A stretch of DNA of 64,000 bases from Agromyces protaetiae (lineage in GTDB: Bacteria > Actinomycetota > Actinomycetes > Actinomycetales > Microbacteriaceae). Below the pieces are notes generated by a model. It was not told the origin of the DNA. It worked only from the letters and a program-made list of their open reading frames with translations, and did no database searches. A program made the translations under genes and the position numbers. Positions 1-64,000 of this stretch are shown here, piece after piece. Location: contig NZ_CP035491.1 in the NCBI RefSeq assembly GCF_004135405.1, positions 1,302,001 through 1,366,000 of the forward strand, read 5' to 3'. Within the stretch, counting starts at the first letter, position 1. Each line of letters begins with the position of its first letter.

Positions 1-852
1 ACCGCCGGCGGCAAGTTCGGCTTCCCCGTCGAGGTCGACGGCGACGTGCTCGTCGTCGACGGCCGCCGCATCAAGGTCCTCGCCGAGCGCGACCCCGCGA
101 AGCTCCCCTGGGGCGAGCTCGACGTCGAGCTCGTGCTCGAGTCGACCGGTCGCTTCACCGACCGCGAGGCCGCAGCCGCGCACCTCGCCGCAGGTGCCAA
201 GAAGGTGCTCGTGAGCGCCCCCGCGAAGGGCGCCGACGTCACCCTCGCCTACGGCGTCAACACCGACGCGTACAACGCCGAGACCGACGTCATCGTCTCG
301 AACGCGTCGTGCACGACGAACGCCCTCGCTCCGCTCGCCAAGGTCCTCGACGACCTCGCCGGCATCGAGCACGGATTCATGACCACCATCCACGCGTACA
401 CGCAGGACCAGAATCTGCAGGATGCGCCGCACAGCGACCCCCGCCGCGCGCGCGCCGCCGCCGAGAACATCATTCCGGCCTCGACGGGTGCCGCCAAGGC
501 CATCGGTCTTGTGCTCCCGGGCCTCGACGGCAAGCTCTCGGGCGACGCCATGCGCGTGCCGATCCCCGTCGGCTCGATCGTCGAACTCAACGCGACCGTC
601 TCGAAAGACGTGACCGTCGAAGAGGTCGTGGCCGCCTATAAGGCCGCCGCCGAGGGTCCGCTCAAGGGCGTGCTCGAGTTCTCCGACGAGCCGCTCGTGT
701 CGAGCGATATCGTCGGGAACCCGCACTCGTCGATCTTCGACTCGACGCTCACGCGCGTCGAGGGCAAGCACGTGAAGGTCGTCGCCTGGTACGACAACGA
801 GTGGGGCTTCTCGAACCGCGTGATCGACACGCTGGGCCTGCTCGCGGCCTGA
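1..852 (+). CDS. gap: Glyceraldehyde-3-phosphate dehydrogenase, 5' truncated by window edge
   Basis: Glycolytic enzyme that oxidises and phosphorylates glyceraldehyde 3-phosphate to 1,3-bisphosphoglycerate with NAD, in the cytoplasm. The frame is open from the first base, so the Rossmann N-terminus (about 60 residues) lies outside the window. The catalytic cysteine sits in [12 protein letters not shown] (fragment residue about 104) and the paired histidine in [12 protein letters not shown] (about 131); the C-terminal signature [11 protein letters not shown] is also present. Length and motifs are ordinary for class I GapA. In most actinobacteria it is followed by pgk and tpi, but here the next gene is an unrelated regulator. 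Identification is secure. Confidence 0.97.
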
Positions 853-935
853 ACGCCGCGAGCCTGACCGACCATCGCGTCGGCGCGAGTGTGGAGCTCG
901 CGCCGACGCGATTGCCGTCTGCGCAGCGTCGCGTT

Positions 936-948
936 CTGCTGTGAGCGG
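936..948. promoter_or_regulatory. Candidate operator for the XRE regulator
   Basis: Imperfect inverted repeat CTGCT-gtg-AGCGG about 42 bases before the regulator start. It resembles the dyad read by ClgR-type activators of clp genes (core CGCYNANRGCG) at most positions but not all. Assignment is inferred from context only. Confidence 0.22.
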
Positions 949-989: not shown

Positions 990-1421
990 ATGGGTGCGAC
1001 GGCGATTCCTGCAGGCGAGCGGATGTCTCGGGCGCCGCTCTGGCGCGACGCGCTCGGCGCGTTCCTGCGGCGCGAGCGGCTTGCACAGGGCCGCATCCTC
1101 TCGGATGTCGCGGGCGAGGCGGATGTCTCGACGCAATACCTCTCCGAGATCGAACGCGGGCGCAAGGAGCCGTCGAGCGAGATCCTCGGCTCGGTCGCCG
1201 ACGCGCTCGGACTCAGCCTGCTCGACGTCGCCGCGGGCGTCGCGTCGGAGCTCGGCGCCGTGCCGTCGGGTGCGCGATCGGATGCCTCCGCCCACGCCGT
1301 CCGCCGGGCGCCCGTGCTCGACCTCACGGTCGCGCGCTCGCGCGCCGGCGGGTCCCCACAGGGTGCGAGCTCCGGCGCATCCGGGGCGGGGCAGCCTCGA
1401 AGCATCCTGCTCGCCGCGTAG
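990..1421 (+). CDS. XRE-family regulator, ClgR/PopR-like
   Basis: Cytoplasmic DNA-binding protein of 143 residues. A Cro/C1-type helix-turn-helix occupies about residues 20-75 (LRRERLAQGRILSDVAGEAD, then STQYLSEIERGRKEPSSEI), followed by an Ala/Ser-rich tail without a recognisable domain. The YLSEIERGRKEPSSE stretch is characteristic of the actinobacterial ClgR and PopR activators of clp protease genes, and the gene faces the clpP pair, which ends 53 bases past its stop codon, so the two are convergent. Control of these clpP genes is inferred. An in-frame ATG 33 bases downstream, inside a GGATGTCTCG motif, is an alternative start; neither has a strong ribosome binding site. Confidence 0.8.
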   Translation: MGATAIPAGERMSRAPLWRDALGAFLRRERLAQGRILSDVAGEADVSTQYLSEIERGRKEPSSEILGSVADALGLSLLDVAAGVASELGAVPSGARSDASAHAVRRAPVLDLTVARSRAGGSPQGASSGASGAGQPRSILLAA

Positions 1422-2071: not shown

Positions 2072-2748
2072 GCGAGCGCTCCCGCATGGGCGCCGGTGCC
2101 CGAGAACGCCCGCTCCGAGACATCCGCCGCTCTGAATCCCGGCCCGAGCAGGCGACCGGACGCCCCGGGGTAGATGCCCGAGGCATCCGTCACCACCCGG
2201 TCGATGAAGCCGTACTCCACCGCCTCGTCGGCCGTGATCCACCGGTCCCGCAGCGAATCGGCCGTGATGCGCTCGATGGATTGACCCGTGTGGGCGGCGA
2301 GGAGGCCGAGCACGGTGTCGCGCGTATGCCGCAGGTCTTCTGCCTGCAGCTCGATGTCGACGGCCGTGCCGCCGATGCCCGCCGAGCCCTGGTGCATGAG
2401 GATGCGCGCGTGGGGCAACGCGAGCCGCTTGCCCGGCGTCCCTGCCGACAGCAGGAACTGGCCGGCGCTCGCCGCCATCCCGAGCGCGACCGTCACGACG
2501 TCGTTCGGGATCGCATGCATGACGTCCATGATCGCGAGCATCGCGGGCACGCTGCCGCCGGGGGAGTTGATCCAGAACGCGATGTCGCGCTCTGGGTCGT
2601 CGGCCGACAGCATGAGGAGCTGGCTCGTCAGGCGGTTGCCGAGGTTCTGGTCGAGCTCGTCGCCGAGCACGACGACGCGCTCGCGGAAGAGTCGGGACTG
2701 CAGGTCGACGTCGATGGGATGCAGCGGGGCTGCCGTGTCTTCGCTCAT
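2068..2748 (-). CDS. clpP: ATP-dependent Clp protease proteolytic subunit
   Basis: Serine peptidase that forms a barrel degrading proteins fed by a Clp ATPase. The 226-residue product has an intact triad: Ser94 in GMAASAG, His119 in ILMHQ, Asp164 in ITADSLRDR, plus WINSPGG. The ATG chosen gives a normal ClpP N-terminus (SEDTAAPLHPIDVDLQSRLF) and has GGAGG immediately upstream, rather close to the codon; a longer in-frame ATG 51 bases upstream is possible. The last bases overlap the start of the serine-less homologue, implying coupled synthesis of both subunits. No ClpX or ClpC ATPase gene is in the window. This looks like an additional pair comparable in layout to Streptomyces clpP3-clpP4, which PopR activates. 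Confidence 0.93.
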   Translation of the reverse strand: MSEDTAAPLHPIDVDLQSRLFRERVVVLGDELDQNLGNRLTSQLLMLSADDPERDIAFWINSPGGSVPAMLAIMDVMHAIPNDVVTVALGMAASAGQFLLSAGTPGKRLALPHARILMHQGSAGIGGTAVDIELQAEDLRHTRDTVLGLLAAHTGQSIERITADSLRDRWITADEAVEYGFIDRVVTDASGIYPGASGRLLGPGFRAADVSERAFSGTGAHAGALA

Positions 2749-2830
2749 GCCTCCGAGCGTGCGCCGGGCGGATGCCTCGGGGCGAGCGTTTCCGCGCACG
2801 GCCGATCTGCCCGGGGCGGATCCGCCGACC

Positions 2831-3697
2831 TCACGCGACGGTCAGGCCCGCGCGGCTCGACGCGTAGTATCCGTGGAGCGCGTCGCCCGAGGCATCCGCG
2901 AGCTCTCGGTACTCGAACGGGTTGTGGGCGCAGTACATGGCGATCTCGGGATGATCGGCGTGAAGCGCGCGCAACCGGTCCTGGTTCGCGCGGCGCGCGT
3001 CGTACTCGGTCGTGACGACGAACTGGAAGAGGCCGACGCCGCGGCCGCACTCGCGGTCGGGCTGCTTGACCTCGCGCGCGTCGAAGTAAGCGTCGCCCGC
3101 GGCGAGGAGCGTTCCGGCGTCGGTCTCGACGACGTAGCCGACGTGGCCATGGGTGTGGCCGAAGAGCGGCACCGCGAGGATCTCCGCCGGGAGCCCGGGC
3201 AGCGACCGCACCGCCTCGAAGCCGAGCCACGGCTCGCCCGTCGCGCCGAAGGTCGACCACTTGGGCGTGTGCGCCCACATCTTGGGGCGGTACCGCCCGC
3301 GCGCCCTCACCCCCTTGCGGCGGATCGCCGCGGCGAGCTCGATCTCGTGCACGTGCACGGTCGCCTCGGGGAAGTCGCTCAGCCCGCCGACGTGATCGAG
3401 ATCGAGATGGGTCTGGATGATGTGGCGCACATCGCGTGGGTCGAACCCCAGGCGGCGCACCTGGTGGATTGCCGCGAGCTCGGGGTCGATGCGCGGCCTC
3501 GCGTAGAGGTGGGCGAACTCGAAGCCGAGCCGTGAGGTGATGCGGGCGTAGTCGGCGGTGCCGAGGCCCGTGTCGACGAGGACGAGCCCCGATGCCGGCG
3601 TTTCGATGAGCAGCACGTGGCAGACGAGATGCTGTCCGAGCACCGACAGTCCGCCGATCGACGCGCAGTTGAGGTGGTGGACCTTGAGTCCGTTCAC
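2831..3697 (-). CDS. Metallo-beta-lactamase-fold hydrolase
   Basis: 288-residue hydrolase with the metal-binding signature HLDLDHVGG (an HxDxDH form of the common HxHxDH), a downstream GHTHGHVGY histidine and a GDAYFD aspartate, and a final CAHNP histidine. These are the ligands of a di-zinc site. Members of this family cleave lactones, thioesters or phosphodiesters; the substrate cannot be told from sequence. The GTG start (NGLKVHHLNC) is fixed by a strong GGAGG five bases upstream. The 5' end lies only about 15 bases from the truncated tetR remnant on the other strand, so its promoter must lie within that remnant. Confidence 0.85.
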   Translation of the reverse strand: MNGLKVHHLNCASIGGLSVLGQHLVCHVLLIETPASGLVLVDTGLGTADYARITSRLGFEFAHLYARPRIDPELAAIHQVRRLGFDPRDVRHIIQTHLDLDHVGGLSDFPEATVHVHEIELAAAIRRKGVRARGRYRPKMWAHTPKWSTFGATGEPWLGFEAVRSLPGLPAEILAVPLFGHTHGHVGYVVETDAGTLLAAGDAYFDAREVKQPDRECGRGVGLFQFVVTTEYDARRANQDRLRALHADHPEIAMYCAHNPFEYRELADASGDALHGYYASSRAGLTVA

Positions 3698-7070: not shown

Positions 7071-7484
7071 ATGCTCAAGTCGAAGATCCACCGCGCGACC
7101 GTGACCCACGCCGACCTCCACTACGTCGGCTCGATCACGATCGACCACGACCTCCTCGAGGCCGCCGACATCCTGCCGGGCGAGCTCGTCTCCGTCGTGA
7201 ACATCGCGAACGGCGCGCGATTCGACACGTACACGATCGCGGGCGAGCGAGGCTCGGGCGTCATCGGGGTGAACGGCGCCGCGGCGCGGTTGGTCGCGGT
7301 CGGCGACCTCGTGATCGTCATCTCATGGGCGTCGGTCGAATCGGCGGATGCCTCGGAGTTCGCGCCGCGCATCGTGCACGTCGATCGGGCGAACGGCATC
7401 GTGAGCGTCGGCGCCGATCCCGCCGAGGCTCACGCGGCCGTCGCGGGCGAGGTGCTCGCGCCGCCGCACGCCGTCATGAGCTGA
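7071..7484 (+). CDS. panD: Aspartate 1-decarboxylase
   Basis: Pyruvoyl enzyme that converts L-aspartate to beta-alanine for pantothenate and CoA synthesis. Sequence begins [20 protein letters not shown], the standard PanD N-terminus, with the self-cleavage pair Gly20-Ser21 in [22 protein letters not shown] is the other conserved block. An in-frame GTG at 7050 would add seven residues (VPTFRRT), matching the short extension of mycobacterial PanD, and is equally possible. It follows the transporter by under 50 bases and may share its transcript. Its last 11 bases overlap the end of the convergent thiD/tenA gene. Confidence 0.95.
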
Positions 7485-9111
7485 GGAGCACACCCTCCGT
7501 GAGCGGCGCCGCCTCCGCGAGCGGCGCCGCGAAGAACGCGAGCTCGTGCTCCGCCGAACGGCGGAACGCCTGCGCGGCACGCGCGCGCACCTCGGGCGTC
7601 GCCCGGCTCGAGGCATCCGTCGCGATCTCGATCGCCCGCCGTGTCGCGATCGCGAACGCCGGGTCGCGGTAGGTCGCGAGCCACGCCGCGTACGGATGGT
7701 CGGCGCGGAGCGGCGCATCGCCGAACCCGCCGGCTCCGAGGCGCGCACCGAGGTCGGTGTAGATCCAGAAGCACGGCAGCAGGGCGGCGACGAGCACGGA
7801 GTATTCGCCGCGTGCGGCGGTCGCGAGCAGATGGTCGAGGTAGGCGGTCGTCGCGCGGTCGGCTTCCAGGTCGCGGACGCCGGATGTCGCGGGGGAGTCG
7901 GATGCTGCGAGCTCGCCCGTGTGCAGTTCGAGCTCGCCCTCGATCGCCCCGCGGGCCGACTCGGCCCAGAATGCCTGCGCCGAGGCATCCGGTGCGAGGC
8001 GCGAAGCCTCGGCGAGCACGCGCGCGTAGTCGCGAAGGTAGAGCGCGTCTTGCGCGAGGTACCCGAGGAACGCGCCGCGGTCGAGCGTGCCGTCCGCGAG
8101 CGACCTGATGAACGGCAGATCGTCGATGCCTGCACGCACGTCGGCGATTCCGCCCCACCAGTCGGCTTCGACTTCGGCCGCGGTCGGCGCGGTCTCGAGC
8201 CCGCCGCGCGACCACAGGCCTGCGAAGTGGTGGACGGGGCCGTGGCCGGCTCGTCCGGGTCCTGCCCCGAGCCCGCCGACCTCGAGCGACTCGCCGTGTC
8301 GCAGCGCTTCGCGCAGCCACCGGCGCGCTTCACGCACGGCGGGCACCCATTCGCCGCGCGACACCCGCAGGGTCGCGATCGCCGACGAGAGCGAGCAGCC
8401 AGTGCCATGGGTCGCGGTGGTCTCGATGCGGGCACCGCCGAACTCGACGAAGCGAGGGTTTCCTTCGGCCTCCTTGACAACTGCTGCGAAAAGCGCAGCA
8501 GTTGTCAAGCGTCCGCGACCTGAGGCATCCACGAGTGCGTCGGGGGCGAGATCGCCCGCCAGATGCCCGCCCTTCGCGAGCACGAGCGTGCCCGAACCGG
8601 TCGAGAGGGTTTCCGCCTGAGCGAGAACACCGGCCCAGCCGGTTGCCGGCTCTGCGCCCGTGAGCACGGCGAGTTCCGCGACGTTCGGCGTGAGGAGGTC
8701 GGCGAGGGGGAGGAGGTCGCGGAGCGCGGCCTCGGAGTCGGCGTCGAGGAGTCGGTCGCCGCTCGTCGCGACCATGACGGGGTCGAGCACGACGACGGGC
8801 GGCCGCACGCGGCCGAGCCACGCCGCGACCGTGCGGATGACGTCCGCGTTCGCGAGCATCCCGATCTTCACGGCGTCGATCGCGATGTCGTCCGAGATCG
8901 CGTCGAGCTGCTCGGCGAGGAACGCCGCGGGCGGCACGTGCACGCCGTGCACGCCGCGCGTGTTCTGCGCCGTGATCGCCGTGATCGCGGCCATGCCGTA
9001 GCCGCCGTTCGCCGAGATCGACTTGAGGTCGGCCTGGATGCCCGCCCCGCCCGACGGGTCGCTGCCCGCGATGCTGAGGACGCGGGGAACGCGAGGTGCC
9101 GGCGCGCTCAT
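7474..9111 (-). CDS. thiD: Bifunctional HMP/HMP-P kinase ThiD fused to TenA
   Basis: 545-residue fusion for thiamine salvage. Residues 1-285 are hydroxymethylpyrimidine (phosphate) kinase: [28 protein letters not shown], the lysine-glycine loop KGGH and the anion hole [11 protein letters not shown]. From about residue 300 a TenA/thiaminase II domain follows ([43 protein letters not shown]), which recovers the pyrimidine from degraded thiamine. Compared with E. coli ThiD, about 20 extra residues (around 198-218) precede the THGTGC loop and coincide with a perfect DNA palindrome. The gene starts in an ATGA overlap with thiE. ThiD-TenA fusions are known in actinobacteria and yeast. Confidence 0.94.
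8473..8509. repeat. Perfect 16-bp palindrome inserted in frame within thiD
   Basis: Arms CTTGACAACTGCTGCG and its exact complement flank a five-base AAAAG loop. On the coding strand it is read as about twelve residues ([12 protein letters not shown]) inside ThiD. The base composition is lower in GC than the surrounding gene, and the encoded stretch has no counterpart in E. coli ThiD. I saw no second copy in this window. Size, palindromy and in-frame placement recall Rickettsia palindromic elements; a mobile origin is inference. Confidence 0.75.
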
Positions 9112-9800: not shown

Positions 9801-10720
9801 GCGAAGGCTCCGGATGCCTCGGCCTGCATGTTGCTCGCGAGCGGCGCGCCGCTCGAGGCATCCGAAAGCTCGAGCCGTGCGCGAGAGACGATGTCAGCCG
9901 CCGTGACCGAGTCGAGCGCATCGAGGAAACGCACCGCGAACGTGCCGGGGCCGGGCGCGCCTGCCGCCCCGAGCTCGGCGGCAACCGTATAGACGAGTGT
10001 CGCGGCGACCGTTGCTCCGAAGGCATCGATGCCGGTGCCGCGCGTAGCCCCGAGGAACGCCGCGGTCACCGCGCCGAGTGCGCATCCGCCGCCAGTCACG
10101 CGCGTGAGCAGTGAGTCGCCGTTCGCGATGCGCGCTGTGCGCACGCCGTCGGTGATGAGGTCGACCGGCCCTGAGACGGCGACGACCGAGCCGAACGTCG
10201 CCGCGAGGTGCGCGGCCGCGTCAGCCGCGGCATCCGTCGAATCCGCGGCGTCGACGCCGCGACCGCCCGCGCCGGTGCCCGCGAGGGCGAGCACCTCCGA
10301 CGCATTCCCGCGGATCGCCGTCGGGCGGCCCGCGACGAGTTCGTGCGCGAGCGCCGTGCGCACGGGCAGCGCACCGATCGCGACGGGGTCGAGGACCCAC
10401 GGCGTGGCCGCTGCGCTCGCGCCCGCGACGGCCTCGCGCGCGGCCGCCCGCTGCTCGGGCGTCGGCGTGCCGAGGTTCACCAGCAGGCCCGAGGCGACGC
10501 CCGCGAACATCCCCGACTCCTCGGTGATGTCGACCATCGCGGGCGCCGCGCCGATCGCAAGGAGCGCGTTCGCCGTGAAGTTCGTCACGACGCTGTTCGT
10601 GATGCAGTGCACGAGCGGCGGCGCCTCGCGCAACCGTTCGAGCAGGTTCGCCGCGGTCGAGGCGAGCGCCTCGGCTTCGGCCGACAGGTGGGCAGGGTCG
10701 ATGGACAGACGATCGCTCAT
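9797..10720 (-). CDS. thiM: Hydroxyethylthiazole kinase
   Basis: Phosphorylates salvaged hydroxyethylthiazole; first gene of the thiM-thiE-thiD/tenA operon. 307 residues with the ribokinase-like family blocks: [68 protein letters not shown], and the anion hole [17 protein letters not shown]. The start codon lies seven bases after AGGGA, which is itself the last part of the TPP riboswitch, so initiation should be blocked when TPP is bound. No thiG, thiC or other de novo genes are nearby, consistent with a salvage role. Confidence 0.96.
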
Positions 10721-10727
10721 CGCGACA

Positions 10728-10830
10728 TCCCTTCGCTAGTCCGAACTAGATCAGGTTCGACGGGTGTGATCTCAGCCGCGGATGCCTCGCGCCGTCATGC
10801 GGCGGAAGCGGGGCGGCACCCCGTGTCACT
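10728..10830 (-). ncRNA. TPP riboswitch (THI element)
   Basis: On the minus strand the leader of thiM carries the conserved segments in order: ACACGGGGTGC, GGCTGAGATCACACCC, then CGAACCTGATCTAGTTCGGACTAGCG and the closing AAGGGA. These are the P1/P2/P3 pyrimidine sensor and P4/P5 pyrophosphate sensor of the TPP aptamer. The variable P3 arm contains one copy of the window-wide motif CGAGGCATCC. The 3' strand overlaps the thiM ribosome binding site, so control at translation initiation is the likely mode. Confidence 0.95.
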
Positions 10831-11083
10831 GCGGGAGAGCCTAGCCGAACCGCGGCGCAGGCTCGCGACACCGGCGGTCTCCTCTCCCGCCGCGCGCACC
10901 GCTCTCGTAGGATCGGTCTCGCGACCCTGCCCGCGAGCACGTCTGGAGCCCCCCGTGACGACACCCGCCGACGCACCGGTGCCGAGGCACCGTGCGCCGA
11001 CGCCGGCGCCGTCGGGGAGTTCCGAATGGACGAACTTCCGCCGCGCGGCCGACCGGGACGCACGACCTGAGGAGGGCGACGGG

Positions 11084-11737
11084 GTGGCGATCGAATCCGA
11101 TGCGGAGTGGATGTTCGAGCAGTTCGAGGCGGCGGTGGCGACCGCGAACGAGGACGCGGTCGCGACGGTGACGCCGATCGTGCAGGCTGCGCCTGTGGCA
11201 GCGCCCGTCGCGGTGCCGGATGCCTCGCGCGCGGCCTTGCGCGCTGCGGCCGCCGCTCCCGCCGATGCCCGGGCGCACGCCGAGACCGCCGACTTCGACG
11301 CGGCCGCCCAGGTGGGACTCGCCCAGGGCATCGCGTTCGTCGCCCACCGCGGCCAGCGCGACAAGGTCGGCGGCGACTACATCGACCACCCGGCCCGCGT
11401 CGCCGAGCGGTTCGACGCGGAGACCGAGCCCGTCGAGGCCGCGGTCGCGTGGCTGCACGACGTCGTCGAAGACACGGAGCTCGACGCCGAAGACCTGCTG
11501 CTCGCGGGCGTCGCCCCTGCGATCGTCGATGCCGTCGTGCTGCTCACGCGCACCGACGACGTCTCCGCCGCCGACTACTACGCGCGCATCCGCGAGCACG
11601 AGGTCGCGCGCCGCGTGAAGCTCGCGGACATCGCCGACAACACGGCGCCGTGGCGCGCGCGCCGCCTCGACCCCGAGACCCGCGAGCGGTTGGCGGAGAA
11701 GTACGCGAAGGCGCGCGAGGCGCTCGGCGAGGCCTGA
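11084..11737 (+). CDS. HD-domain phosphohydrolase, RelA/SpoT-hydrolase-like
   Basis: Small protein with an HD metal-dependent phosphohydrolase fold: AHRGQRDKVGGDYIDHPARV, AWLHDVVEDT and VKLADIADN supply the His, His-Asp and Asp metal ligands of the kind found in the hydrolase half of RelA/SpoT and in MESH1-type enzymes. There is no synthetase, TGS or ACT domain, so if it acts on (p)ppGpp it can only degrade it; the substrate is unproven. The N-terminal 60 residues are Ala-rich and probably disordered. The GTG chosen follows AGGAGG by eight bases; a second in-frame GTG at 10955 (GGAG upstream) would add 43 disordered residues. A TAGGAT hexamer near 10910 could be its -10 element. Confidence 0.8.
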   Translation: MAIESDAEWMFEQFEAAVATANEDAVATVTPIVQAAPVAAPVAVPDASRAALRAAAAAPADARAHAETADFDAAAQVGLAQGIAFVAHRGQRDKVGGDYIDHPARVAERFDAETEPVEAAVAWLHDVVEDTELDAEDLLLAGVAPAIVDAVVLLTRTDDVSAADYYARIREHEVARRVKLADIADNTAPWRARRLDPETRERLAEKYAKAREALGEA

Positions 11738-11919: not shown

Positions 11920-12145
11920 GGGAGCCCCCTTCCGGATGTCGCGGCCGCGCGCTCCCGGATGCGAGCGTTCCTCACCTCGACGGGTGCCACGGTAGCGCGC
12001 GAGCGCGTCGCGGTCGACCCCCGGGCGCGGGGGCGCATCTTCGGCGAGGACGCGCATCTTGCGCTGCACCGCGAGATCGATGAGCGCAGCGGATGTCGCG
12101 GGCGGCAGGTATCGTCACGTGCAACCTCGACCAAGGAGCATCCGG

Positions 12146-13108
12146 ATGCCTCGCACCCCAACGCCTGCACTCGACGCCGCGCAGCTCGATCGCGCGATCG
12201 GCGCCGTCCTCGGCTCGGCGGCAGGCGACTCGCTCGGCGCGCCGTACGAGTTCCAGCCGTCGGTCGCCGACGACATCGCGATCACGATGCACGCGGGCGG
12301 CATGTGGGAACTCGGCGAGTGGACCGACGACACGAGCATGTCGATCCCCGTGCTGCAAGCGCTCGCGCGCGGCGAGTCCCTCGACGACGAGGCCGTGCTC
12401 GGGCGGATCGTCGTCGAGTGGCAGGGGTGGGCGGTCTCCGCGCCGGACGTCGGCATCCAGACCCGCCAGGTGCTCGCCGAGGCGCAGCACGGCGGCGTCG
12501 CGACCGCTGCCGCGGCCGCCCGCGCCGCCGCCCGGGCGGTCCACGAGCGCACCGGGCGCTCGGGCGGCAACGGCTCGCTCATGCGCACCGGACCGGTCGC
12601 GCTCGGGCACCTCGCCGCCGGCGAAGAGGACGCGCTCGAGACATCCGCCCGTCTCGTCTCCGACCTCACGCACTACGAGACGGACGCCGCGGATGCCTCG
12701 GTGATCTGGTCGCTCGCGATCCGGCACGCCGTCCTGACGGGCCGGATCGATATCCGCGGCCCGATAGACCGGCTGCCGGTCGAGCGTCGCGCGCGGTGGC
12801 ATGAACTTGCGGATGTCGCGGAGCGACTGCACCCGCGAGACATCCCCGGGTCGAACGGCTGGGTCGTCGCCGCGCTGCAGGCCGCGTGGGCGGCGATCGT
12901 CGGAGCCGACACGCTGCGGGGCGTGCTCGAACGCGCGGTGCGCTGCGGCAACGACACCGACACGGTCGCCGCGATCGCCGGTTCCCTCGCCGGCGCCGCG
13001 TACGGAGCCTCGGCCGTGCCCGCCGCGTGGAGGCGGGAGCTGCACGGCTGGCCGGGCCTCCGCGCCGCCGACCTCGAGGCGCTCGTGGTCGCCGCCGTCG
13101 CCCCGTAG
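12146..13108 (+). CDS. ADP-ribosylglycohydrolase family protein
   Basis: 320-residue DraG/ARH-type hydrolase that would remove ADP-ribose from proteins or other targets. The di-magnesium site motifs are clear: AAGDSLGAPYEF near residue 25, WTDDTSM near 59, NGSLMRTGPVALG near 143, and the C-terminal GNDTDTVAAIAGSLAGAAYG. AAGGAG stands seven bases before the ATG, and the start codon itself is part of a GGATGCCTCG motif. No ADP-ribosyltransferase gene is close by, so its partner is unknown. Confidence 0.9.
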   Translation: MPRTPTPALDAAQLDRAIGAVLGSAAGDSLGAPYEFQPSVADDIAITMHAGGMWELGEWTDDTSMSIPVLQALARGESLDDEAVLGRIVVEWQGWAVSAPDVGIQTRQVLAEAQHGGVATAAAAARAAARAVHERTGRSGGNGSLMRTGPVALGHLAAGEEDALETSARLVSDLTHYETDAADASVIWSLAIRHAVLTGRIDIRGPIDRLPVERRARWHELADVAERLHPRDIPGSNGWVVAALQAAWAAIVGADTLRGVLERAVRCGNDTDTVAAIAGSLAGAAYGASAVPAAWRRELHGWPGLRAADLEALVVAAVAP

Positions 13109-15460: not shown

Positions 15461-15916
15461 TCACCCGCGCTGCTTCTCGCGCACGTACACCTCGCGTCGC
15501 ACGCGAGCGACGACGTCGCCCGAGGCATCCGTGATCTCGGTCTCGAACCATTCGAGCACCTTGGCGCCGTTCTGCGCCCGTGCGCGGAGTTCGTCGGCCT
15601 TCGCCTTGGGAACTTCGAAGTGCGCCGTCAGCACCCCCTTGCCCGGTTTCACGAACTCGATCTCGCCGCGCGTGTCCCAGACGAGGTAGTCGCGCCCGAG
15701 CTGGTGCATGACGAGCATGAAGTAGTACGGGTCGGTCATCGCCTGCATCGACCCGCCGAACGCGGTCTTCACGTAGTTGCGCGTGAAGACGTTGACGTGG
15801 AGCTCGACGGTCGCGCTCGTCCAGTCATCGGCGAAGCGGCGCACGCGGATGCCGCTGAAGAGGTTCGGGATCCACAGGGACATGCCGACGGCGAGCCGGC
15901 GCGGGGTCATGCGCAT
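15461..15916 (-). CDS. DUF4442 hot-dog-fold protein
   Basis: 151-residue cytoplasmic protein resembling PaaI-type thioesterases. The N-terminal half carries NLFSGIRVRRFADDWTSATV and RNYVKTAFGGSMQAMTDPYY, the pattern of DUF4442, where the segment after the long helix sits at the hot-dog active site. Substrate not known; acyl-CoA or acyl-ACP thioester hydrolysis is the family expectation. An in-frame ATG two codons downstream is an alternative start. Confidence 0.8.
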   Translation of the reverse strand: MRMTPRRLAVGMSLWIPNLFSGIRVRRFADDWTSATVELHVNVFTRNYVKTAFGGSMQAMTDPYYFMLVMHQLGRDYLVWDTRGEIEFVKPGKGVLTAHFEVPKAKADELRARAQNGAKVLEWFETEITDASGDVVARVRREVYVREKQRG

Positions 15917-37453: not shown

Positions 37454-37480
37454 ATAGGCAGTCGGAGGCGGCTCTGAGGC

Positions 37481-40468: not shown

Positions 40469-40492
40469 AACGAGTTCAAGCCTACGCCTCGA

Positions 40493-42601: not shown

Positions 42602-42613
42602 GCTCGTGAGTCG

Positions 42614-49838: not shown

Positions 49839-52816
49839 TCACGCGCGATCGCGATCGACGGATGCCTCGCGCTCGCCGGAGCGGTCCGCGAGCCCGCGTT
49901 CGTGTGCGAAGCGCGCGGCCTGCGTGCGGTTGGTCGCACCGGTCTTCGTGAGGATCGCGCGCACGTGGTTCGCCGCCGTGTGCTCGCTGATGACGAGCCG
50001 GGCGGCGATGTCGCGGTTGCTGAGCCCCTCGGCGACGAGGACGATGACTTCGACCTCGCGCGGCGTGAGCGCACCGCCATCCGGATGCCCCTCGCTCGTC
50101 GCCCTCGCGTCGTCGAGCATGCGCAGGACCCGCGCGAGCCCGGCGGGCTCGGCGATCGCGCGGGCCCGCTCCGCGAAGCGGCGCGCATCGGGCGAGCCCG
50201 GAGCGATGCGCTCCAGGTGTCGCGCCGCCGACGCGAGCGCGAGTGCGGCGTCGAGCGAGGCATCCGTGCGTTCTGCCAGACCGAACGCCGCGTCGTAGCG
50301 CCCGAGCGGATCGCCCTCGCCGCAGAGCGACTCGAGGTCGCCGAGGTGCCGGTCGGCCGCGCCGAGCGGCGCGACGAAGAACCCCGACATGAGGTTCAGG
50401 CCCGAGAACTCCTCGAGCCACGGCCGAAGGCGCGCGGCCGTCTCGGCATCGTCCAGGAACACGGCCGCCTCCGCGAGGAACGCGAGCCGAACAGGCCAGT
50501 CGCTCGACTCCTGCTGGTCCAGGCCGTGCGCGAGCATCCAATCGAGGACGCGCCGCGCGGGCTCACGCAGCCCGAGCTGCGTGTACAGCGCGAGCAGTCC
50601 CGGCGCCCAGCGCTCGGTCGGCGACTCGTCGCCCGTCACGAGCCTGCGGATGCGTTCGAGCCCGCCCGTCTCGCGGCGTACGAGATAGTCCTGCAGCGCG
50701 CCGACGCCCGGGTCCGCGTCGTCGCGGAACTGGCGCTCGCCTGATTGCGCCCGCCGGAGCGCCTGCTCCGCCTCGGCGAGGCGACCGCCCGAGAGTGCGC
50801 GCCCGAACCGCACGCACTCGAGCCAGTACGACCAATGCCGACCCCACGCGCGGGCGACGTCGACGAGGTCGCGCTCGGACCGCTCCAACAGCGCCCGGTC
50901 GCCCACGATGTACGCGTTCGCGGTCTGATGCAGCACCGCGGCGCCCCGCCACTCCCCGCGCGGAGACGTGAGCGCCCGGAACTCGGCGAGCCGCTCGAGC
51001 CGCTCGGCGATCCCCTTCGGGCGGAACGTGAGCGAGCACGCCGCGCGGAGCGCGAAGGCCAGCACGATCGGGTCTCCGTGGCGTCGCGCGAGCGCGATCG
51101 CCCGATCGGCGAGCCGCTCGGCCCCGTCCACGTCGCCCGTCATCGCCGTCGCGCGCGCGAGCGAGGCCTGCCCCTCGATGCACAGCGGATCGCCGCCGTC
51201 GGTCGGGATCGACTCGAGTGCGGTCATGAGCAACTCGACGGCCCGATGGCCGAGCAGTCCCGGACGCCACGAGGCGTCCTCGTAGCCGATCGCCGCCCGC
51301 ACCCGAAGCCGGGGACTTCCCGTCGCGGCGACCCGTTCGTAGAGGTCGCGTGCGCGCGGGGTGTTGGAGGCGAGCGTCCAGCGATCGGCCGCGAGTACGA
51401 GGAGCTCGGCGCGCTCGTCGGCGTCGGACGAGATCTCCGCCGCGCGCTCCGAGAGCCGACCGGCGTCCTCGTACGCGAACCCCTCGACGGCGAGCTCCGC
51501 GGCACGCGCGAGGTAGGTGACCGCCCGGTCGCCGTACCCGAGGGCGCGCGCCGCCGAATAGTGGTGGGCGAGCCGTTGCACGAGCCGCGGAGCGGCGGGG
51601 AAGTCGGCCTCGAGGGTCTCGGCGATGCGAGCGTGGATGCGGAGCGCACCGGTCGTCGGCACGAGGTCGAGGATCGCCTGGCGTGCGATCGCGTGCGGGA
51701 AGCGGTACCGGTCGCCGTCCGCGCGCGGCGGCTCGAGGAGGCCGGTCTCGACGATCGCGTCCATCGCCGCCAACGTGACGTCGACGGGGGCCGCGCTGAT
51801 GCCGAGGACCTCGACGAGATCGACCTCCTGGCCGAGGACCGCCGCGAGCTCCAGCACCGGGCGATATGCGGGGTCGAGGCGCACGAGCCGAGCCCGCACG
51901 AGATCGCCCACCGAGTCGGGCAGCTCGACCATGCCCCCGCCCTCGTGGAGGTCGGCGTCGAGCACGGGCCGCCACATCGCCCGCAGGAGGAACGGGTTGC
52001 CGCCCGTGAGCTCGCCGAGGACCGCCGCCGGCAGCCTCGCCTCCGCAGGCGCGATTCCCCGCGGATCGACACGTAGGCCGCGATGTCCTCCGCCGAGAGC
52101 GGCGCGAGGTCGAGGCGGGCGAGCCCGTTCAGCCGGCCGAGGCGGGCGAGGGCGTCCGCGAGCGGACCGGAGCGGTCGGGCGGAGCGTTCCGCAGTGCGC
52201 CCACGACGAGCACCCGTCGCTCGGCGGTCCGCTCGACGAGCCGCACCAGGAGTTGGATCGCGTCGGGCCCCGCCCACTGCAGGTCGTCGAGCACCAGGAC
52301 GAACGGGCGCGCGTCGGCCGCCGCGACGACCAGGTCGACGACGGCGTCGAAGAGCGGCTCGCGACCGGAGTCCGGCGCGGCATTCGCGCCGGCGGTCCTC
52401 GAGTCGGGACCGGCCGACCCCGTGACATCCCGACCCTCCTCGGCGACGCCCGCCAGCAGCCGCCGCGCGGCCTCGACCGTCGCGAGCTCGGCCGGCGACG
52501 AGACATCCGCCCCCTCGATCGCGAGCAGCGACCTGAGCGCCTGATCGAACGGCTCGAACGCCCGCCCGATCTCCTGCACGCACGAGCCGAACAGCACCGC
52601 CCCGCCGTCGCTCGCGATGCGCGCGCACGCCTCGCTCACGAGGCGCGACTTGCCCGAGCCGGGCTCGCCGCCGACGAACACGGCACGGCCGACGCCGCGC
52701 CGGGCGTCGTCCCACGCCTCGTCGAGCGCCGCGACCTCTTCGCGTCGACCGACGAACGGCGGCTGGCCGGAGGCGGTCCAACCCGCCGGGAGCGGCGGTG
52801 CGGGCCATTCCCGCAT
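49839..52816 (-). pseudogene. Large ATP-binding LuxR-family regulator, single-base frameshift
   Basis: About 990 residues when repaired. N-terminal AAA/STAND ATPase: FVGRREEVAALDEAWDDARR, Walker A GGEPGSGKSRL, Walker B FVLVLDDLQWAGPD. The frame breaks in a CCCC run (52057-52060, plus strand); one added base turns SIRG-ESRL into SIRGGIAPAEARLPAA and joins the long middle of helical (TPR-like) repeats. The C-terminal LuxR helix-turn-helix is complete (LTPREVEVIVLVAEGLSNRD, HTAANHVRAILTKTGATNRT). LAL-type regulators of this kind activate nearby metabolic operons on binding a ligand. The start is uncertain: ATG at MREWPAP or GTG three codons earlier. Confidence 0.85.
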
Positions 52817-53348: not shown

Positions 53349-55013
53349 ATGATCCGAACGCACGAGGTGTCGAACCAGGTTCCCGCGAGGGAGGGGCTCG
53401 ACGAGTTCGCCGTGAACGCGCCCCTTGTCGAGGCGGTCGCGAAATGGGGCACGGATGCCTCGTCCGCACGCCTCGGGGCGGCGGGTCGTCTCGTCGGCTC
53501 GGCCGCCTTCCAGCGCGACGCCGAGCACGCGAACACCCGCCCGCCAGTGCTGCACTCGCACGACCGGTGGGGCCGACGGATCGACGAGGTCGAGTACGAC
53601 GACTCGTACCACCGCATCATCGGCGCGGCCGTCGCGGCGGGCGCGCACACGTCGGCGTGGGCCGAGCCCGCGCCCGGCGCGAACGTCGACCGGGCCGCGG
53701 CGTTCATGCTGTTCGCCCAGATCGAGCCCGGGCACGCATGCCCGGTCTCGATGACCCACGCCGCCGTGCCGACGCTGCGGCTCGGCGCGCAGGGGCTCGT
53801 CGACGACTGGATGCCCCGGCTGCTCTCGCGCGAGTACGAGCCCGCGCTCGGGACATCCGCGTCTCCCAAGCGCTCCGCGCTCCTCGGCATGGCGATGACC
53901 GAGAAGCAGGGCGGCTCCGACGTGCGCGCCAACACGACGGTCGCCGAGGTCACGGGCGACGACGACCGGTGGGGGCGGCGCGTGTCGATCACGGGTCACA
54001 AGTGGTTCTGCAGCGCGCCCATGAGCGACGCGTTCCTCGTGCTCGCGCAGACGCCCGCGGGGCTCAGCTGCGTGTTCGTGCCACGGGTGCTCCCCGACGG
54101 GACGCGCAACGAGTTCCGCATCCAACGGCTGAAGGACAAGCTCGGCAACCGCTCGAACGCGTCGAGCGAGATCGAACTCGACGGCACGACCGGGTGGATC
54201 GTCGGCGAAGAAGGACGCGGCGTCGCGACGATCGTGCAGATGGTCACGCACACGCGCCTCGACTGCGTGCTGGGGTCGGCGGCAGGGATGCGCCAGGCCG
54301 TCGCCGAGGCCGCGTGGCACGTGCGGCACCGGGCGGCGTTCGGGTCGCTCCTCGTCGACCAGCCCGCGATGCGGGCCGTCGTCGCCGATCTCGCCCTCGA
54401 GTCCGAGGCGGCGACGTGGACGGCGATGCGGCTCGCGCGGGCGTATGACGATGAGGATGCATCGGAGCAGGCGTTCCGGCGGCTCGCGACCGCCGTCGCG
54501 AAGTACTGGGTCTGCAAGCGCGGCCCCCAGCACGCGTATGAAGCCCTCGAATGCCTCGGCGGCAACGGGTACACCGAGGCGTGGCCGCTCGCGCGCCGCT
54601 ACCGCGAGCAGCCGCTCCTCGCGATCTGGGAGGGATCGGGCAACGTCATCGCCCTCGACCTCCTGCGGGTGCTCGGCCGCGAGCCCGAGGCGTACGAGGC
54701 GTTCTTCGCCGTCGTCGGCGCGGCCGAGGGGCGGCACGCCGCGTTCGACGCCGCGCTCGCCGAGGCCAAGGCGCTCGTGCGCGAACTCGCCCGCTCGCTC
54801 GCCGACGACCCGTCCGGGGCCACCGCCGCGCTCCGCGCGCGGGAGCTCGCCGAACGCCTCGGGCTCGTCCTGCAGGCGTCGCTCATGCTCGAGCACGCGC
54901 CGGGCGAGGCATCCGCCGTGTTCTGCGACTCCCGCCTCGGCGGACGCGGCTTCTCGCAGTACGGCGCGCTGCCCGCGGGCGCCGACCTCGGGGCGATCCT
55001 CGCGCGGGCGTGA
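53349..55013 (+). CDS. aidB: AidB-like acyl-CoA dehydrogenase
   Basis: 554 residues, length and order of motifs match E. coli AidB closely: HEVSNQVPAREGLDEF at the start, CPVSMTHAAVPTL, GMAMTEKQGGSDVRANTT, GHKWFCSAPMSDAFLVLAQT, RLKDKLGNRSNASSEIELDG, and the arginine-rich active site LARRYREQPLLAIWEGSGNV. AidB belongs to the adaptive alkylation response, binds FAD and DNA, and is thought to destroy alkylating agents or shield DNA. No ada or alkB lies next to it, though ogt is 28 kb upstream. Confidence 0.93.
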   Translation: MIRTHEVSNQVPAREGLDEFAVNAPLVEAVAKWGTDASSARLGAAGRLVGSAAFQRDAEHANTRPPVLHSHDRWGRRIDEVEYDDSYHRIIGAAVAAGAHTSAWAEPAPGANVDRAAAFMLFAQIEPGHACPVSMTHAAVPTLRLGAQGLVDDWMPRLLSREYEPALGTSASPKRSALLGMAMTEKQGGSDVRANTTVAEVTGDDDRWGRRVSITGHKWFCSAPMSDAFLVLAQTPAGLSCVFVPRVLPDGTRNEFRIQRLKDKLGNRSNASSEIELDGTTGWIVGEEGRGVATIVQMVTHTRLDCVLGSAAGMRQAVAEAAWHVRHRAAFGSLLVDQPAMRAVVADLALESEAATWTAMRLARAYDDEDASEQAFRRLATAVAKYWVCKRGPQHAYEALECLGGNGYTEAWPLARRYREQPLLAIWEGSGNVIALDLLRVLGREPEAYEAFFAVVGAAEGRHAAFDAALAEAKALVRELARSLADDPSGATAALRARELAERLGLVLQASLMLEHAPGEASAVFCDSRLGGRGFSQYGALPAGADLGAILARA

Positions 55014-59326: not shown

Positions 59327-59331
59327 GCCGG

Positions 59332-60905
<1,574 letters not shown>

Positions 60906-60909: not shown

Positions 60910-62138
60910 GAATCGTGTCGCTCCAGTCCGGGACCTCGGCCGACGGCATCGACGTGGCGGTCGTCGACGTCGAGGTCGCGGATGACCCGGGCGGCGCGCC
61001 TGCCGACGTGTCATCGGTGGCGGGCGGTTCGCGCCTCGCGCTCACGCCGGTGCTGACGCGCACGGTCGACTGGGAGCGGGCGCTGCGCGCGCGGATCCTC
61101 GGGGCGGCCCTCGGCGACGTGCTCGACGCCGGCGCATGGTGCCGACTCGACACCGCGCTCGGCCAGGCGTTCGCGGACGCCGCAGCCGACGTCGTCGCCG
61201 AGGCCGGCCCGGCCGACCTCATCGTCTCGCACGGTCAGACCCTGCACCACTGGGTCGAGGGCGGCCGCGCCCGAGGCACCCTCCAGCTCGGAGACCCGTC
61301 ATGGATCGCCGAGCGCGCCGGCGCCCCCGTGCTCTCGCACGTGCGCGCCGCCGACATCGCCGCGGGCGGCGAAGGCGCCCCGCTCATGGCCGTGTTCGAC
61401 CGGCTCTGGCTCGGCGAGGAGGCACGCGCAGCGGGCCGGGCACTCGCCACGGTCAACCTCGGCGGGATCGCGAACGTGCAGATCGTCGCTCCATCCGGCG
61501 AGGTGTGCGCATTCGACAGCGGACCCGCCAATGCGCTCGTCGACGAGGCCGTCTCGGAGGCGACCGCAGGCGCCGAGGCCTTCGATCGCGACGGCCGGCA
61601 CGCCGGCGCCGGGCACGTCCACGACGTGCTTCTCGCGAGGCTCCTCGCCCACCCCTACTTCGCCGCCGCCGCCCCCAAGACGACCGGTCGCGAGACCTTC
61701 CACCTGGGCGTGGTCGGCGAGGCCGCGCGGGCCGTCGGCGCTGACGCGGTCGGCGTCGACGACCTCGCGGCGACGCTCACCGAGCTCACGGCGATCACCG
61801 TCGTGGGCGCGTTCGCGCCCGAAGCCGCGCCGGCCGAGCTCGTCGTGTCGGGCGGCGGCGCGCTCAACCCCGTGCTGCTCGACCGCCTCGCGGCCCACGC
61901 GCGTGCCCGAGGCATCCGCGTCGCCTCGAGCGCCGAACGCGGGCTCGACCCCGCCTTCAAGGAGTCGCTCATGTTCGCGCTCCTCGGCTTCCTGTCGTGG
62001 CACGGCGTGCCCGTCCGCATCGCCGGCCCGGCGATGCGCGTCGCCGGGCGCATCAGCCCCGGCCCCTCACCCCTCAGACTCCCCGAGCCGATCGCCGGCG
62101 CGACGTCCCTCACCATCCACCAGGAGAACCACCGATGA
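60906..62138 (+). CDS. anmK: Anhydro-N-acetylmuramic acid kinase
   Basis: 410 residues. Opens the 1,6-anhydro ring of anhydroMurNAc and phosphorylates it to MurNAc-6-P. LQSGTSADGIDVAVVD is the N-terminal phosphate loop, then IVSHGQTLHHW, LQLGDPSWIAER, RAADIAAGGEGAPL, VNLGGIANVQIV, FDSGPANALVDEAV, and the closing LVVSGGGALNPVLLDRLAA and FKESLMFALLGFLSWHG. Coupled to nagZ by ATGA overlap and to murQ in the same way. Confidence 0.96.
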
Positions 62139-63130
62139 CGACGACGAACCACCCCGCCGCGAGCGAGCCCGCGGCCGAGGACCGCGCACGCCTGCACGAC
62201 GTGCTCGCGGGCCTCGCGACCGAGCAGGTCGCCGACGGCCTCGCCGACTTCGACCTCCGCTCGACCGAGGCGCAGCTCGCGACCATGGTCGACGAGAGCG
62301 CCGTCGCGGTCGAGGCCGTGCGCGACGCGACGCCGCAGATCGCCGCCGCCGTCGACGCGATCGTCGCGCGCCTGCGCGCAGGCGGCCGTCTCGTGTACCT
62401 CGGCGCGGGCACCGCGGGGCGCCTCGGCGTGCTCGACGCGAGCGAGATCCCCCCGACGTTCGGCACCGACCCGTCGCTCGTCGTAGGACTCATCGCGGGC
62501 GGCGAGACGGCCATCAGACACGCCGTCGAGAACGCCGAGGACGACGCCGAGCAGGGCGCCGCCGACGTCGCGGCGATCGGGATCGGCCCGCTCGACGCGC
62601 TCGTCGGCATCTCGGCATCGGGTCGCACGCCGTACGTGCTCGGTGCGCTCGCGCACGCCCGAGCGGCCGGCGCGCTCACCGTCGCCCTCGCGAGCAACCG
62701 GGGTTCCGAGATCGGCGCCGCAGCCGACCTCGCGATCGAGACGGCCGTCGGCCCCGAGGTCGTCGCGGGATCCACGCGACTCAAGGCGGGCACCGCCCAG
62801 AAGCTCGTGCTCAACGCCATCTCGACGCTCGCGATGGTGCATCTCGGCAAGGTCCACGGGAATCTCATGGTCGACGTGCGGGCGACGAACGCGAAACTGC
62901 GGGCGCGGGCGGAGCGGATCGTGATGGCGGCGACGGGCTGCGAGTCGGCCGAGGCCGCCGCCGCGCTCGCCTCGACCGGCGGCGCCGTCAAGCCCGCGAT
63001 CCTCGTCACCCTCACTGGGGTCGATGCCGAGGTCGCAGTGAGGGCGCTCGATCGGGAGGATGGGGTGTTACGCGGTGCGCTCGAGCGGCTCGCGAGCGCC
63101 GACCGACCCGAGGAGTCCCATGTCCCCTGA
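62135..63130 (+). CDS. murQ: N-acetylmuramic acid 6-phosphate etherase
   Basis: 331 residues. Removes the lactyl ether from MurNAc-6-P to give GlcNAc-6-P and D-lactate. Sugar isomerase fold with YLGAGTAGRLGVLDASEIPPTF, which includes the catalytic glutamate, then ISASGRTPYVLGALAHAR (phosphate-binding SIS loop), VGPEVVAGSTRLKAGTAQKL and NLMVDVRATNAKL. Length and motifs are standard. Its start overlaps anmK and its last 11 bases overlap the murR start. Confidence 0.97.
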   Translation: MTTTNHPAASEPAAEDRARLHDVLAGLATEQVADGLADFDLRSTEAQLATMVDESAVAVEAVRDATPQIAAAVDAIVARLRAGGRLVYLGAGTAGRLGVLDASEIPPTFGTDPSLVVGLIAGGETAIRHAVENAEDDAEQGAADVAAIGIGPLDALVGISASGRTPYVLGALAHARAAGALTVALASNRGSEIGAAADLAIETAVGPEVVAGSTRLKAGTAQKLVLNAISTLAMVHLGKVHGNLMVDVRATNAKLRARAERIVMAATGCESAEAAAALASTGGAVKPAILVTLTGVDAEVAVRALDREDGVLRGALERLASADRPEESHVP

Positions 63131-64000
63131 TGTGCTGTCGGCCGTGCGGGAGGCGCTCCCGCGGTTGAGCTCGTCCGAGTCGCGTGTGGCCGTCGCGATC
63201 CTCCAGGATCCGGCGATCGTCGTCGACCTCACGATCACCGAGCTCGCGGGGGCGTGCGGCACGTCGCTCTCGACGGTCGCGCGGTTCTGCCAGACCCTCG
63301 GCTACACGGGCTACCGCGAGTTCCGCATGGCGGTCGCGAGCGCGGTGAGCCGTGAGGAGGCCGAGCGGGCGAGGTTCGGGCTCGCGGCGACCGACATCGA
63401 CCCCGACGACGGCGTCGACGAGGTCGTCGCCAAGATCGCCTTCCAGGAGATCCTCGCGATCGAGCAGACGGCGCACGGGCTGGATGTCGCGGCGCTCGAC
63501 ATCGTCGTCGACCGCCTCGTCGACGCGCGCCAGGTCGACCTGTACGGCTTCGGCGCGTCGGGGCTCACCGCGCAGGACCTCCAGCAGAAGCTCGTCCGCG
63601 TCGGCATGGTCGCGACGTGCTCGGTCGACATCCATCTCGCACTCGTGTCGGCCGCGCTCCGCGGCCCCGGCGACGTGGCCATCGCGATCTCGCACTCCGG
63701 CGAGACGACCGAGACGCTTCACGCGCTCGACGTCGCCGCTTCGGCCGGGGCGTTCACGGTCGCGATCACGAACTCGCCCGCGTCCCCCCTGGCCGAGATC
63801 GCCGACGCCGTCCTCGCGACCCGTGCGCGCGAGTCGAGCTTCCGCCTCGGGGCCATGTCGAGCCGCATCGCGCAGCTCGCGCTCGTCGACATCCTGTTCG
63901 TCCGACTCGCGCAGCGCCGTCACCTCGACGTCGAGGAGCCGCTCCGTCGCACGCGCGAAGTGACGGCGAGCCATCGTGTGCCGCCCAGGCGGCGCGGCGC
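63120..64000 (+). CDS. murR: MurR/RpiR-family regulator, 3' end beyond the window
   Basis: At least 293 residues, still open at the window end. N-terminal RpiR helix-turn-helix (LPRLSSSESRVAVAILQDPA, ITELAGACGTSLSTVARFCQ, LGYTGYREFRM) and a C-terminal SIS sugar-phosphate sensor (DLYGFGASGLTAQDLQQKLV, VAIAISHSGETTETLHALDV, VAITNSPASPLAEIADAVL). It lies at the end of the operon it presumably controls, with MurNAc-6-P or GlcNAc-6-P the expected effector. Coding overlap with murQ suggests coupled translation. Confidence 0.92.
   Translation, partial: MSPDVLSAVREALPRLSSSESRVAVAILQDPAIVVDLTITELAGACGTSLSTVARFCQTLGYTGYREFRMAVASAVSREEAERARFGLAATDIDPDDGVDEVVAKIAFQEILAIEQTAHGLDVAALDIVVDRLVDARQVDLYGFGASGLTAQDLQQKLVRVGMVATCSVDIHLALVSAALRGPGDVAIAISHSGETTETLHALDVAASAGAFTVAITNSPASPLAEIADAVLATRARESSFRLGAMSSRIAQLALVDILFVRLAQRRHLDVEEPLRRTREVTASHRVPPRRRG

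Follow-up and report, generated by a model that had tools for sequence, protein, structure and literature searches.

Copies of one short word, GGATGYCTCG, are strewn over a stretch of 64,000 nucleotides of the Agromyces protaetiae chromosome (NZ_CP035491.1, positions 1,302,001 to 1,366,000; this whole stretch is referred to below as the window), and the locus raises the question of what this word is. A preliminary description of the window had counted about 45 copies on both strands where chance predicted less than one, and had likened the word both to an uptake sequence and to HIP1. The answer that we favour, with a probability of roughly 0.6, is that the slightly longer form CGGATGYCTCG is an actinobacterial self tag resembling a DNA uptake sequence (DUS), and that it is the local dialect of a motif with the core CGGATGCC that is carried by many Microbacteriaceae. 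At the level of sequence the word is present in excess, has a rigid core and a near-random scatter, forms hairpins between genes, turns over between species, occurs in dialects and is lacking from one low-GC island. It agrees with most of the testable sequence hallmarks of a DUS, as the first of the earlier comparisons had it with regard to anatomy; membership of that class is not itself claimed.

Abundance of the word

The window contained 45 exact copies of GGATGYCTCG, 20 on the plus strand and 25 on the minus strand, as compared to an expectation of 0.66 copies from 100 dinucleotide shuffles, the largest of which gave 4. The earlier count was accurate, and its example coordinates were right to within 0 to 10 bases (1131 for 1121, 37046 for 37051). 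On the complete chromosome (3,683,091 bases, one contig) the word was found 2,306 times (1,180 + 1,126) and the reversed word, a control that is not codon-matched, 4 times.

Further counts were made on a 464-kb sample of the genome, consisting of the window and 20 spread stretches of the same chromosome. This sample held 298 copies, 202 and 96 of the two spellings, for which a Markov model of order 4 predicted 9.9 and 5.8 (about 16 in total) and a model of order 5 predicted 36 and 21 (57 in total). The preliminary description had named a count near the Markov expectation as the result that would speak against the word; since 298 copies were observed where about 16 or 57 were predicted, the word withstood this comparison. 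DUS and uptake signal sequences (USS) are likewise marked by a single short word that is repeated hundreds to thousands of times, well beyond what chance would give.

Genes were called with a home-made codon-score caller, and for that reason the labels coding or non-coding, sense or antisense, and convergent depend on this caller. When synonymous codons were shuffled within the 389 called genes, 8.5 copies remained (sd 2.5, maximum 14, 60 runs) of the 227 present; the demands of codon and amino acid usage are therefore insufficient to explain the word. The motif spelled 79 of 149 Asp-Ala-Ser tripeptides and 69 of 119 Glu-Ala-Ser tripeptides, the two that had been singled out beforehand, and the codons GAT, GCA and TCC, which it had been said to force, were indeed scarce in this genome (7.2, 8.2 and 9.1 per thousand codons). 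Copies were about twice as dense in non-coding DNA (1.14 per kb) as in coding DNA (0.56 per kb). Together with the synonymous shuffle and the site turnover described below, this density supports the earlier view that the word is acted on as DNA and not as protein.

Anatomy, orientation and spacing

Alignment of 297 copies revealed a single ungapped 11-mer, CGGATGYCTCG, with no conservation of the flanks beyond codon periodicity. Forms with one mismatch at G1, G2, A3, T4, G5 or C9 (numbered from C0) occurred 0 to 6 times each, with little or no excess, as compared to 164 occurrences of the full word; one-mismatch forms at C0, Y6, C7, T8 and G10 were in clear excess. A rigid core (GGATG and the ninth C) with softer edges would be as expected of DNA that is read by one protein, and an essential core with tolerant flanking positions is also found in DUS and USS.

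Copies within called genes were divided almost evenly between the sense (116) and antisense (110) orientations; 106 of the former and 86 of the latter shared one codon phase. The earlier statement that the word lies in all frames was correct only in part. No strand bias between replichores, a property that had also been raised beforehand, was detected for any assumed origin when the maximum over all origins was compared with permutations (298 sites, p = 0.57; 603 looser sites, p = 0.61). Occurrence on both strands without replichore polarity is again shared with DUS and USS. Spacing was near random, with a coefficient of variation (CV) of 1.05 without close pairs and 1.21 with them.

Inverted pairs and hairpins

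Close pairs were sought with the looser pattern CGGATGNN[CT]C (472 sites) and a gap of at most 60. Between genes, 25 pairs were inverted and 9 direct, and some of the inverted pairs lay between convergent called genes, for example at 37419-37450 of the window and at L005:10426 (L numbers are our handles for loci, G numbers for genomes and g numbers for genera). The four pairs that were folded gave stems of at least 17 base pairs, with z-scores from -6.6 to -9.7. Inverted pairs that form hairpins between genes are a further hallmark of DUS and USS.

Close pairs of CGGATGCC were inverted in 21 cases and direct in 5 in motif-rich relatives of several dialects, including that of A. protaetiae; the corresponding figures were 9 and 3 for the named Microbacterium, Agreia and Cryobacterium loci, and 2 and 4 for the Arthrobacter outgroup, all of these counts pooling genic and intergenic pairs. 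That motif hairpins terminate transcription is something that we infer from stem stability, because a scan for T-tailed terminators over positions 36500-43500 of the window returned two sites (1.9 expected), neither of them at the two hairpins of the window.

Dialects and site turnover in the Microbacteriaceae

The word was present in all 60 genomes of the genus that were searched, in 115 to 2,306 copies, the genome of the window having the most. In the family as a whole (398 genomes), the ratio of the core CGGATGCC to its reversed control went up to 39 and exceeded 4 in 196; several genera, including some with small genomes, were at about 1. For the other families of the order (230 genomes), ratios lay mostly at 1-2.5 and did not rise above about 4; the highest value, about 4.0 (G687, 313 versus 79), was read by eye from the rows. 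Because these families mostly score 1-2.5 on the reversed-word control, the baseline ratio is 1-2.5 rather than 1. There was no clear excess in the sampled stretches of Leucobacter, Rathayibacter, Clavibacter, G075, G104 and G110, and the motif was enriched 1.4-fold in the Arthrobacter group and 1.1-fold in other actinobacteria.

The ending of the motif differed between relatives in small samples (40 kb per relative, 20 kb for G022; loci L028, L029 and L123 left out). The ending CGGATGCCT was found in the species of the window and in G001, G016, G023 and G041 of its genus; CGGATGCCG in G005 and G022 of the same genus, in G060 and G271, and in Microbacterium, where it occurred 164 times in 438 kb as compared to 32.5 expected; and CGGATGCCC in G070. 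Endings were mixed in G116, G369, G065, G112, G138 and Cryobacterium. Clade-specific dialects around a common core are typical of DUS and USS; here several genomes are mixed.

Individual sites were compared in nine members of the genus that are about 20% apart (66 sites, 344 comparisons), using ortholog families of at least four members (12 families, 10,875 columns) and skipping called genes with internal stops. Identity between species over the 11 bases of a site was 0.742, as compared to 0.772 in matched windows, and the first ten bases were identical in 0.192 of cases, as compared to 0.173; conservation of the whole site was thus not found. Sites came and went by apparent point changes and in-frame indels, and in some aligned columns endings were swapped in place, with CTC in one species and CGC in another. 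The ortholog alignment suggested in the preliminary description revealed turnover, with sites no more alike over 11 bases than matched windows.

One 20-kb stretch of the A. protaetiae genome (L016, C1:2952001-2972000), with a GC content of 0.637, had 0 exact copies of GGATGYCTCG. It may be an acquired island.

Competence and pilus genes

Genes for ComEA (HHH_3, SLBB), for ComEC and for a type IVa pilus are present in the genome, as are two Tad/Flp loci. Encoded competence machinery, here ComEA, ComEC and the two tad loci, accompanies DUS and USS. ComEA, ComEC, TadA to TadC, TadE and Tad were checked by Pfam; topA, prfB and the type IVa pilus parts were named by eye from translations. In Micrococcus luteus both tad loci are required for transformation (PMC4322843).

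The TadA proteins fell into two classes (tree support 100/99). The class-B locus (L142 in A. protaetiae) adjoins a topA-like gene, has a Flp-like pilin and was found, by BLAST score, in 30 of the 32 genomes of a panel. Its pilin of 54 amino acids (L142:6152-6316) matched Pfam DUF4244 (2.2e-21), a result that points to DUF4244 as a family of Flp pilins in actinobacteria. The class-A locus (L141) consists of tadA-B-C and pilin genes followed by a prfB-like gene, and two of its small proteins gave no convincing Pfam match. Its distribution was patchy: it was present in 15 of 15 motif-rich and 7 of 17 motif-poor panel genomes, the panel having been picked from motif ratios before the ATPase result, with G384 filed as poor and the class-A assignment of G072 resting on a long branch and an E value of 2e-124. 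All 32 panel genomes had at least one Tad-type ATPase.

A class-A profile at E 1e-90 matched 279 of the 398 family genomes. Among the 329 genomes of at least 2 Mb, the median motif ratio was 7.0 with class A (228 genomes) and 3.0 without it (101), and among genera of a median size of at least 2 Mb it was 8.7 (51 genera) and 3.1 (20), respectively (p = 4e-5, shared ancestry being ignored). This test omits the 69 genomes under 2 Mb, and the contrast weakened when all 398 were used, with medians of 5.0 (279) and 2.8 (119), or 6.8 (62) and 3.1 (23) across all 85 genera (p = 9e-4, with the same disregard of ancestry). All 26 genera with a median ratio of at least about 8.7 carried class A, in 112 of their 118 genomes.

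A type IVa pilus (PilB/PilT) was rejected as the reader, since a PilB-type match was missing from 5 of 15 motif-rich panel genomes (G005, G116, G164, G271, G313) and present in 6 of 17 motif-poor ones (G094, G168, G063, G106, G109, G075); in the family the match is patchy and does not follow the motif. In A. protaetiae an apparent type IVa pilus locus (pilB, pilT, pilC, pilins and prepilin peptidase; L008:7860-17867) lies directly downstream of rpoB-rpoC.

Two types of exceptional genome were noted. In G040, of the Agromyces genus, the sole Tad-like ATPase match was short, contained a stop and scored 34.8 bits (in an assembly of 170 contigs), and the motif ratio of 7.3 was the lowest of ten genus members sampled, a single case that fits a link with Tad. 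G221 and G431 of genus g85 had ratios of 2.6 and 3.7, as compared to a genus median of 16.9, and retained class-A TadA on longer branches; they form a good pair for finding what was lost.

Copies in the window

The copies of the word and the motif hairpins of the window are listed below. The single copies were located by exact matching, and those for which a pair is noted at 9812, 9854, 12144 and 25077 also by the pair scan; the hairpins are given with their folding energies.

1021-1030, plus strand, GGATGTCTCG
1121-1130, plus strand, GGATGTCTCG
2116-2125, minus strand, GGATGTCTCG
2179-2188, minus strand, GGATGCCTCG
2770-2779, plus strand, GGATGCCTCG
2888-2897, minus strand, GGATGCCTCG
7346-7355, plus strand, GGATGCCTCG
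7609-7618, minus strand, GGATGCCTCG
7981-7990, minus strand, GGATGCCTCG
9812-9821, plus strand, GGATGCCTCG, inside a called gene, half of an inverted pair with 9854-9863
9854-9863, minus strand, GGATGCCTCG, half of an inverted pair with 9812-9821
10780-10789, plus strand, GGATGCCTCG, inside a TPP riboswitch aptamer (10711-10833, minus strand)
11218-11227, plus strand, GGATGCCTCG
12144-12153, plus strand, GGATGCCTCG, over a called start codon, with an inverted near-copy back to back at 12135
12637-12646, minus strand, GGATGTCTCG
12691-12700, plus strand, GGATGCCTCG
12836-12845, minus strand, GGATGTCTCG
13893-13902, minus strand, GGATGCCTCG
15521-15530, minus strand, GGATGCCTCG
16328-16337, plus strand, GGATGCCTCG
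19520-19529, plus strand, GGATGCCTCG
19995-20004, plus strand, GGATGTCTCG
21830-21839, minus strand, GGATGTCTCG
24349-24358, plus strand, GGATGCCTCG
24678-24687, minus strand, GGATGCCTCG
25077-25086, plus strand, GGATGTCTCG, with an inverted near-copy back to back at 25068
25902-25911, minus strand, GGATGCCTCG
26307-26316, plus strand, GGATGCCTCG
36383-36392, minus strand, GGATGTCTCG
37051-37060, minus strand, GGATGCCTCG
37419-37450, no strand, two copies of the CGGATGCCCC variant in inverted orientation that make a perfect hairpin, flanked by called genes that converge (-39 kcal/mol, z = -7.0)
40316-40325, minus strand, GGATGCCTCG
41161-41170, plus strand, GGATGCCTCG
42568-42592, no strand, inverted pair of motif variants, a hairpin flanked by two called genes that point the same way (-34.5 kcal/mol, z = -7.4)
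46645-46654, minus strand, GGATGTCTCG
46891-46900, minus strand, GGATGCCTCG
47249-47258, minus strand, GGATGCCTCG
47695-47704, minus strand, GGATGCCTCG
49860-49869, plus strand, GGATGCCTCG
50256-50265, minus strand, GGATGCCTCG
52499-52508, minus strand, GGATGTCTCG
53453-53462, plus strand, GGATGCCTCG
54905-54914, minus strand, GGATGCCTCG
59330-59339, plus strand, GGATGTCTCG
60481-60490, plus strand, GGATGCCTCG
60807-60816, minus strand, GGATGCCTCG
61908-61917, minus strand, GGATGCCTCG

Three placements that had been described from the first inspection were borne out. The copy at 10780-10789 lies within the TPP aptamer, so the word has entered a structured RNA; a called start codon is covered in one case, at 12144-12153; and the rRNA operon (28846-34253) has 0 copies. 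As a separate matter, the window and the samples of G001, G065 and G116 had a milder excess of ATCGCGAT, GATCGCGA, CGATCGC or GCGATCGCC words, which recall HIP1-like GATC palindromes.

Evaluation of the uptake reading

If the word is a self tag, fragments that carry it, released from lysed relatives, would be bound preferentially by a surface receptor during natural transformation. The receptor would most likely be a pilin of the Tad/Flp pilus together with ComEA, and the bound DNA would be drawn in through ComEC. Biased gene transfer would then build up the word in every place where a gene can accommodate it, because, under this proposal, recombination replaces unmarked alleles by marked ones; drift of the receptor would give rise to dialects, and inverted pairs would double as hairpins at gene ends. 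The bolder proposition, that this is the first DUS of a Gram-positive bacterium, a dialect-forming tag of the Microbacteriaceae whose reader is a Tad/Flp pilus rather than one of type IVa and which shapes the choice of codons and the hairpins at gene ends, is one that we put forward tentatively, as somewhat short of an even chance.

Several observations weigh against an uptake function. To our knowledge there has been no uptake or transformation experiment in any member of the Microbacteriaceae, and a described DUS in a Gram-positive bacterium was not found among the literature matches listed. No receptor for the word was pinned down in the gene surveys of the family genomes. ComEC was present in 388 of the 398 genomes, motif-poor ones included, and its presence is ruled out as a predictor of the motif. 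G374 (g12) had a ratio of 9.0 with no ComEC match and no TadA-type ATPase above the cut-off; it may reflect a recent loss of competence, a gap in the assembly or evidence against uptake.

The class-A association has weaknesses as well, its genus-level statistics taking no account of shared ancestry. Genera g8, g12 and g44 had median ratios of 4.8-8.5 without class A, their 12 examined members having at most one Tad-type ATPase; many genera combined class A with little motif, g51, g17 and g21 among them at a ratio of about 2; and 51 of the 69 genomes under 2 Mb carried class A, at a median ratio of 2.0. Class-A tad as a necessary or sufficient condition for the motif is ruled out by these cases. 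Within the genera that vary, the sign of the association was 10 to 6, which is not significant.

Three features of the word itself also count against a self tag. Close pairs inside genes were not mainly inverted (14 inverted, 20 direct). The six-base core was kept between species in 0.416 of cases, as compared to 0.297 for control hexamers, and on this account some conservation of sites is possible. Four Microbacterium phages had a mild excess of both CGGATGCC (19 versus 12.4 expected) and GGATGCC (68 versus 39.9), so that a plain absence of the core from foreign DNA does not hold and phages do not provide clean evidence.

Alternative explanations

The word could instead be the site of an abundant, family-specific protein that organises, segregates or recombines the chromosome, whether as a nucleoid, Chi-like or KOPS-like element. 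The word is single and ungapped, rigid in its core and softer at the edge, and so looks like the site of one protein; it is spaced nearly at random (CV 1.05), and its core is kept slightly above control hexamers. Chi and KOPS sites show a strand polarity along the replichore, and the absence of strand polarity for any origin, with 298 and with 603 sites, largely excludes those roles; fast turnover and dialects within one genus would be unexpected of a structural site. We consider this explanation improbable. Similarly unlikely is a function like that of HIP1, in which the word would be the target of an orphan methyltransferase or the product of a repair or mutation bias, the modified site being favoured in replication, repair or expression. 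The rigid GGATG core, which is the FokI site as well, could be a methylase target, and there is a precedent in HIP1, an iterated word tied to orphan methyltransferases (PMC4390886). The likeness fits less well because HIP1 is a palindrome and CGGATGYCTCG differs from its own reverse complement. Moreover, the 3' half of the word varies among members of one genus, and the word is paired into intergenic hairpins.

High copy number and intergenic hairpins would also suit a dispersed repeat, such as a MITE, a REP or another mobile element that carries the word. The lack of any conserved flank in 297 copies contradicts this, most copies lie inside called genes in a preferred codon phase, and species appear to differ by point changes and by in-frame indels of small size; the idea is very improbable, and we regard it as ruled out by the flanks and the mode of turnover. 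Least credible of all is an artefact of codon usage or composition. The genome is GC-rich, the core is mildly enriched in the four phages, and other families have ratios of 1-2.5, with a maximum of about 4. Against this stand the 227 copies where the synonymous shuffle left 8.5 and the 298 where the order-4 model predicted about 16, as well as the use of rare codons and the higher density outside genes; for the full word the synonymous shuffle rules the artefact out.

Comparison with known systems and implications

To return to the self-tag reading, the nearest parallel is the DUS of the Neisseriaceae (PMC3630211), which is a short word, about as long as the present one and repeated thousands of times, with a core kept in all dialects, variable surroundings and clade-specific dialects, with dyad pairs in one species, and with some relatives that are devoid of it. 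The dialect pattern described here appears to mirror it closely. The differences are that the present word is unrelated, that it belongs to a Gram-positive, high-GC family and that its function is predicted from sequence; also, the Neisseriaceae reader in the same source is the type IV pilus minor pilin ComP (PMC3630211), whereas here the PilB/PilT genes do not follow the motif.

Comparison with cyanobacterial HIP1 yields a highly iterated chromosome-wide word in both cases, HIP1 being palindromic and linked to orphan methylases (PMC4390886) and the present word asymmetric and with dialects. M. luteus, whose Flp/Tad transformation system has two tad loci, comEA and comEC, as are encoded here, differs in that the term uptake sequence occurs 0 times in the main text of PMC4322843. 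The USS of the Pasteurellaceae is likewise a short repeated word, with hundreds to thousands of copies, that is tied to competence. The taxon is different, and the Agromyces word, known from its sequence, has no second flanking consensus. Such a second consensus is present in the Pasteurellaceae USS.

Among the literature matches listed, no paper appeared to report such a motif or an uptake sequence in Actinobacteria, most subscription papers and preprints lying outside the search; judged by title and the start of the abstract, none of the listed matches to the spellings of the word looked like a report of the motif. The abstracts that name uptake sequences, again among the matches listed, place them in the Gram-negative Neisseriaceae and Pasteurellaceae.

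If the self-tag reading is true, the word would be a third, unrelated case of an uptake sequence, and specificity of uptake would be a trait that evolves repeatedly. It would predict natural competence in genera such as Agromyces, Microbacterium and Cryobacterium, which would aid the genetics of these bacteria, and the change of dialect within one genus would make the coevolution of receptor and motif directly testable.

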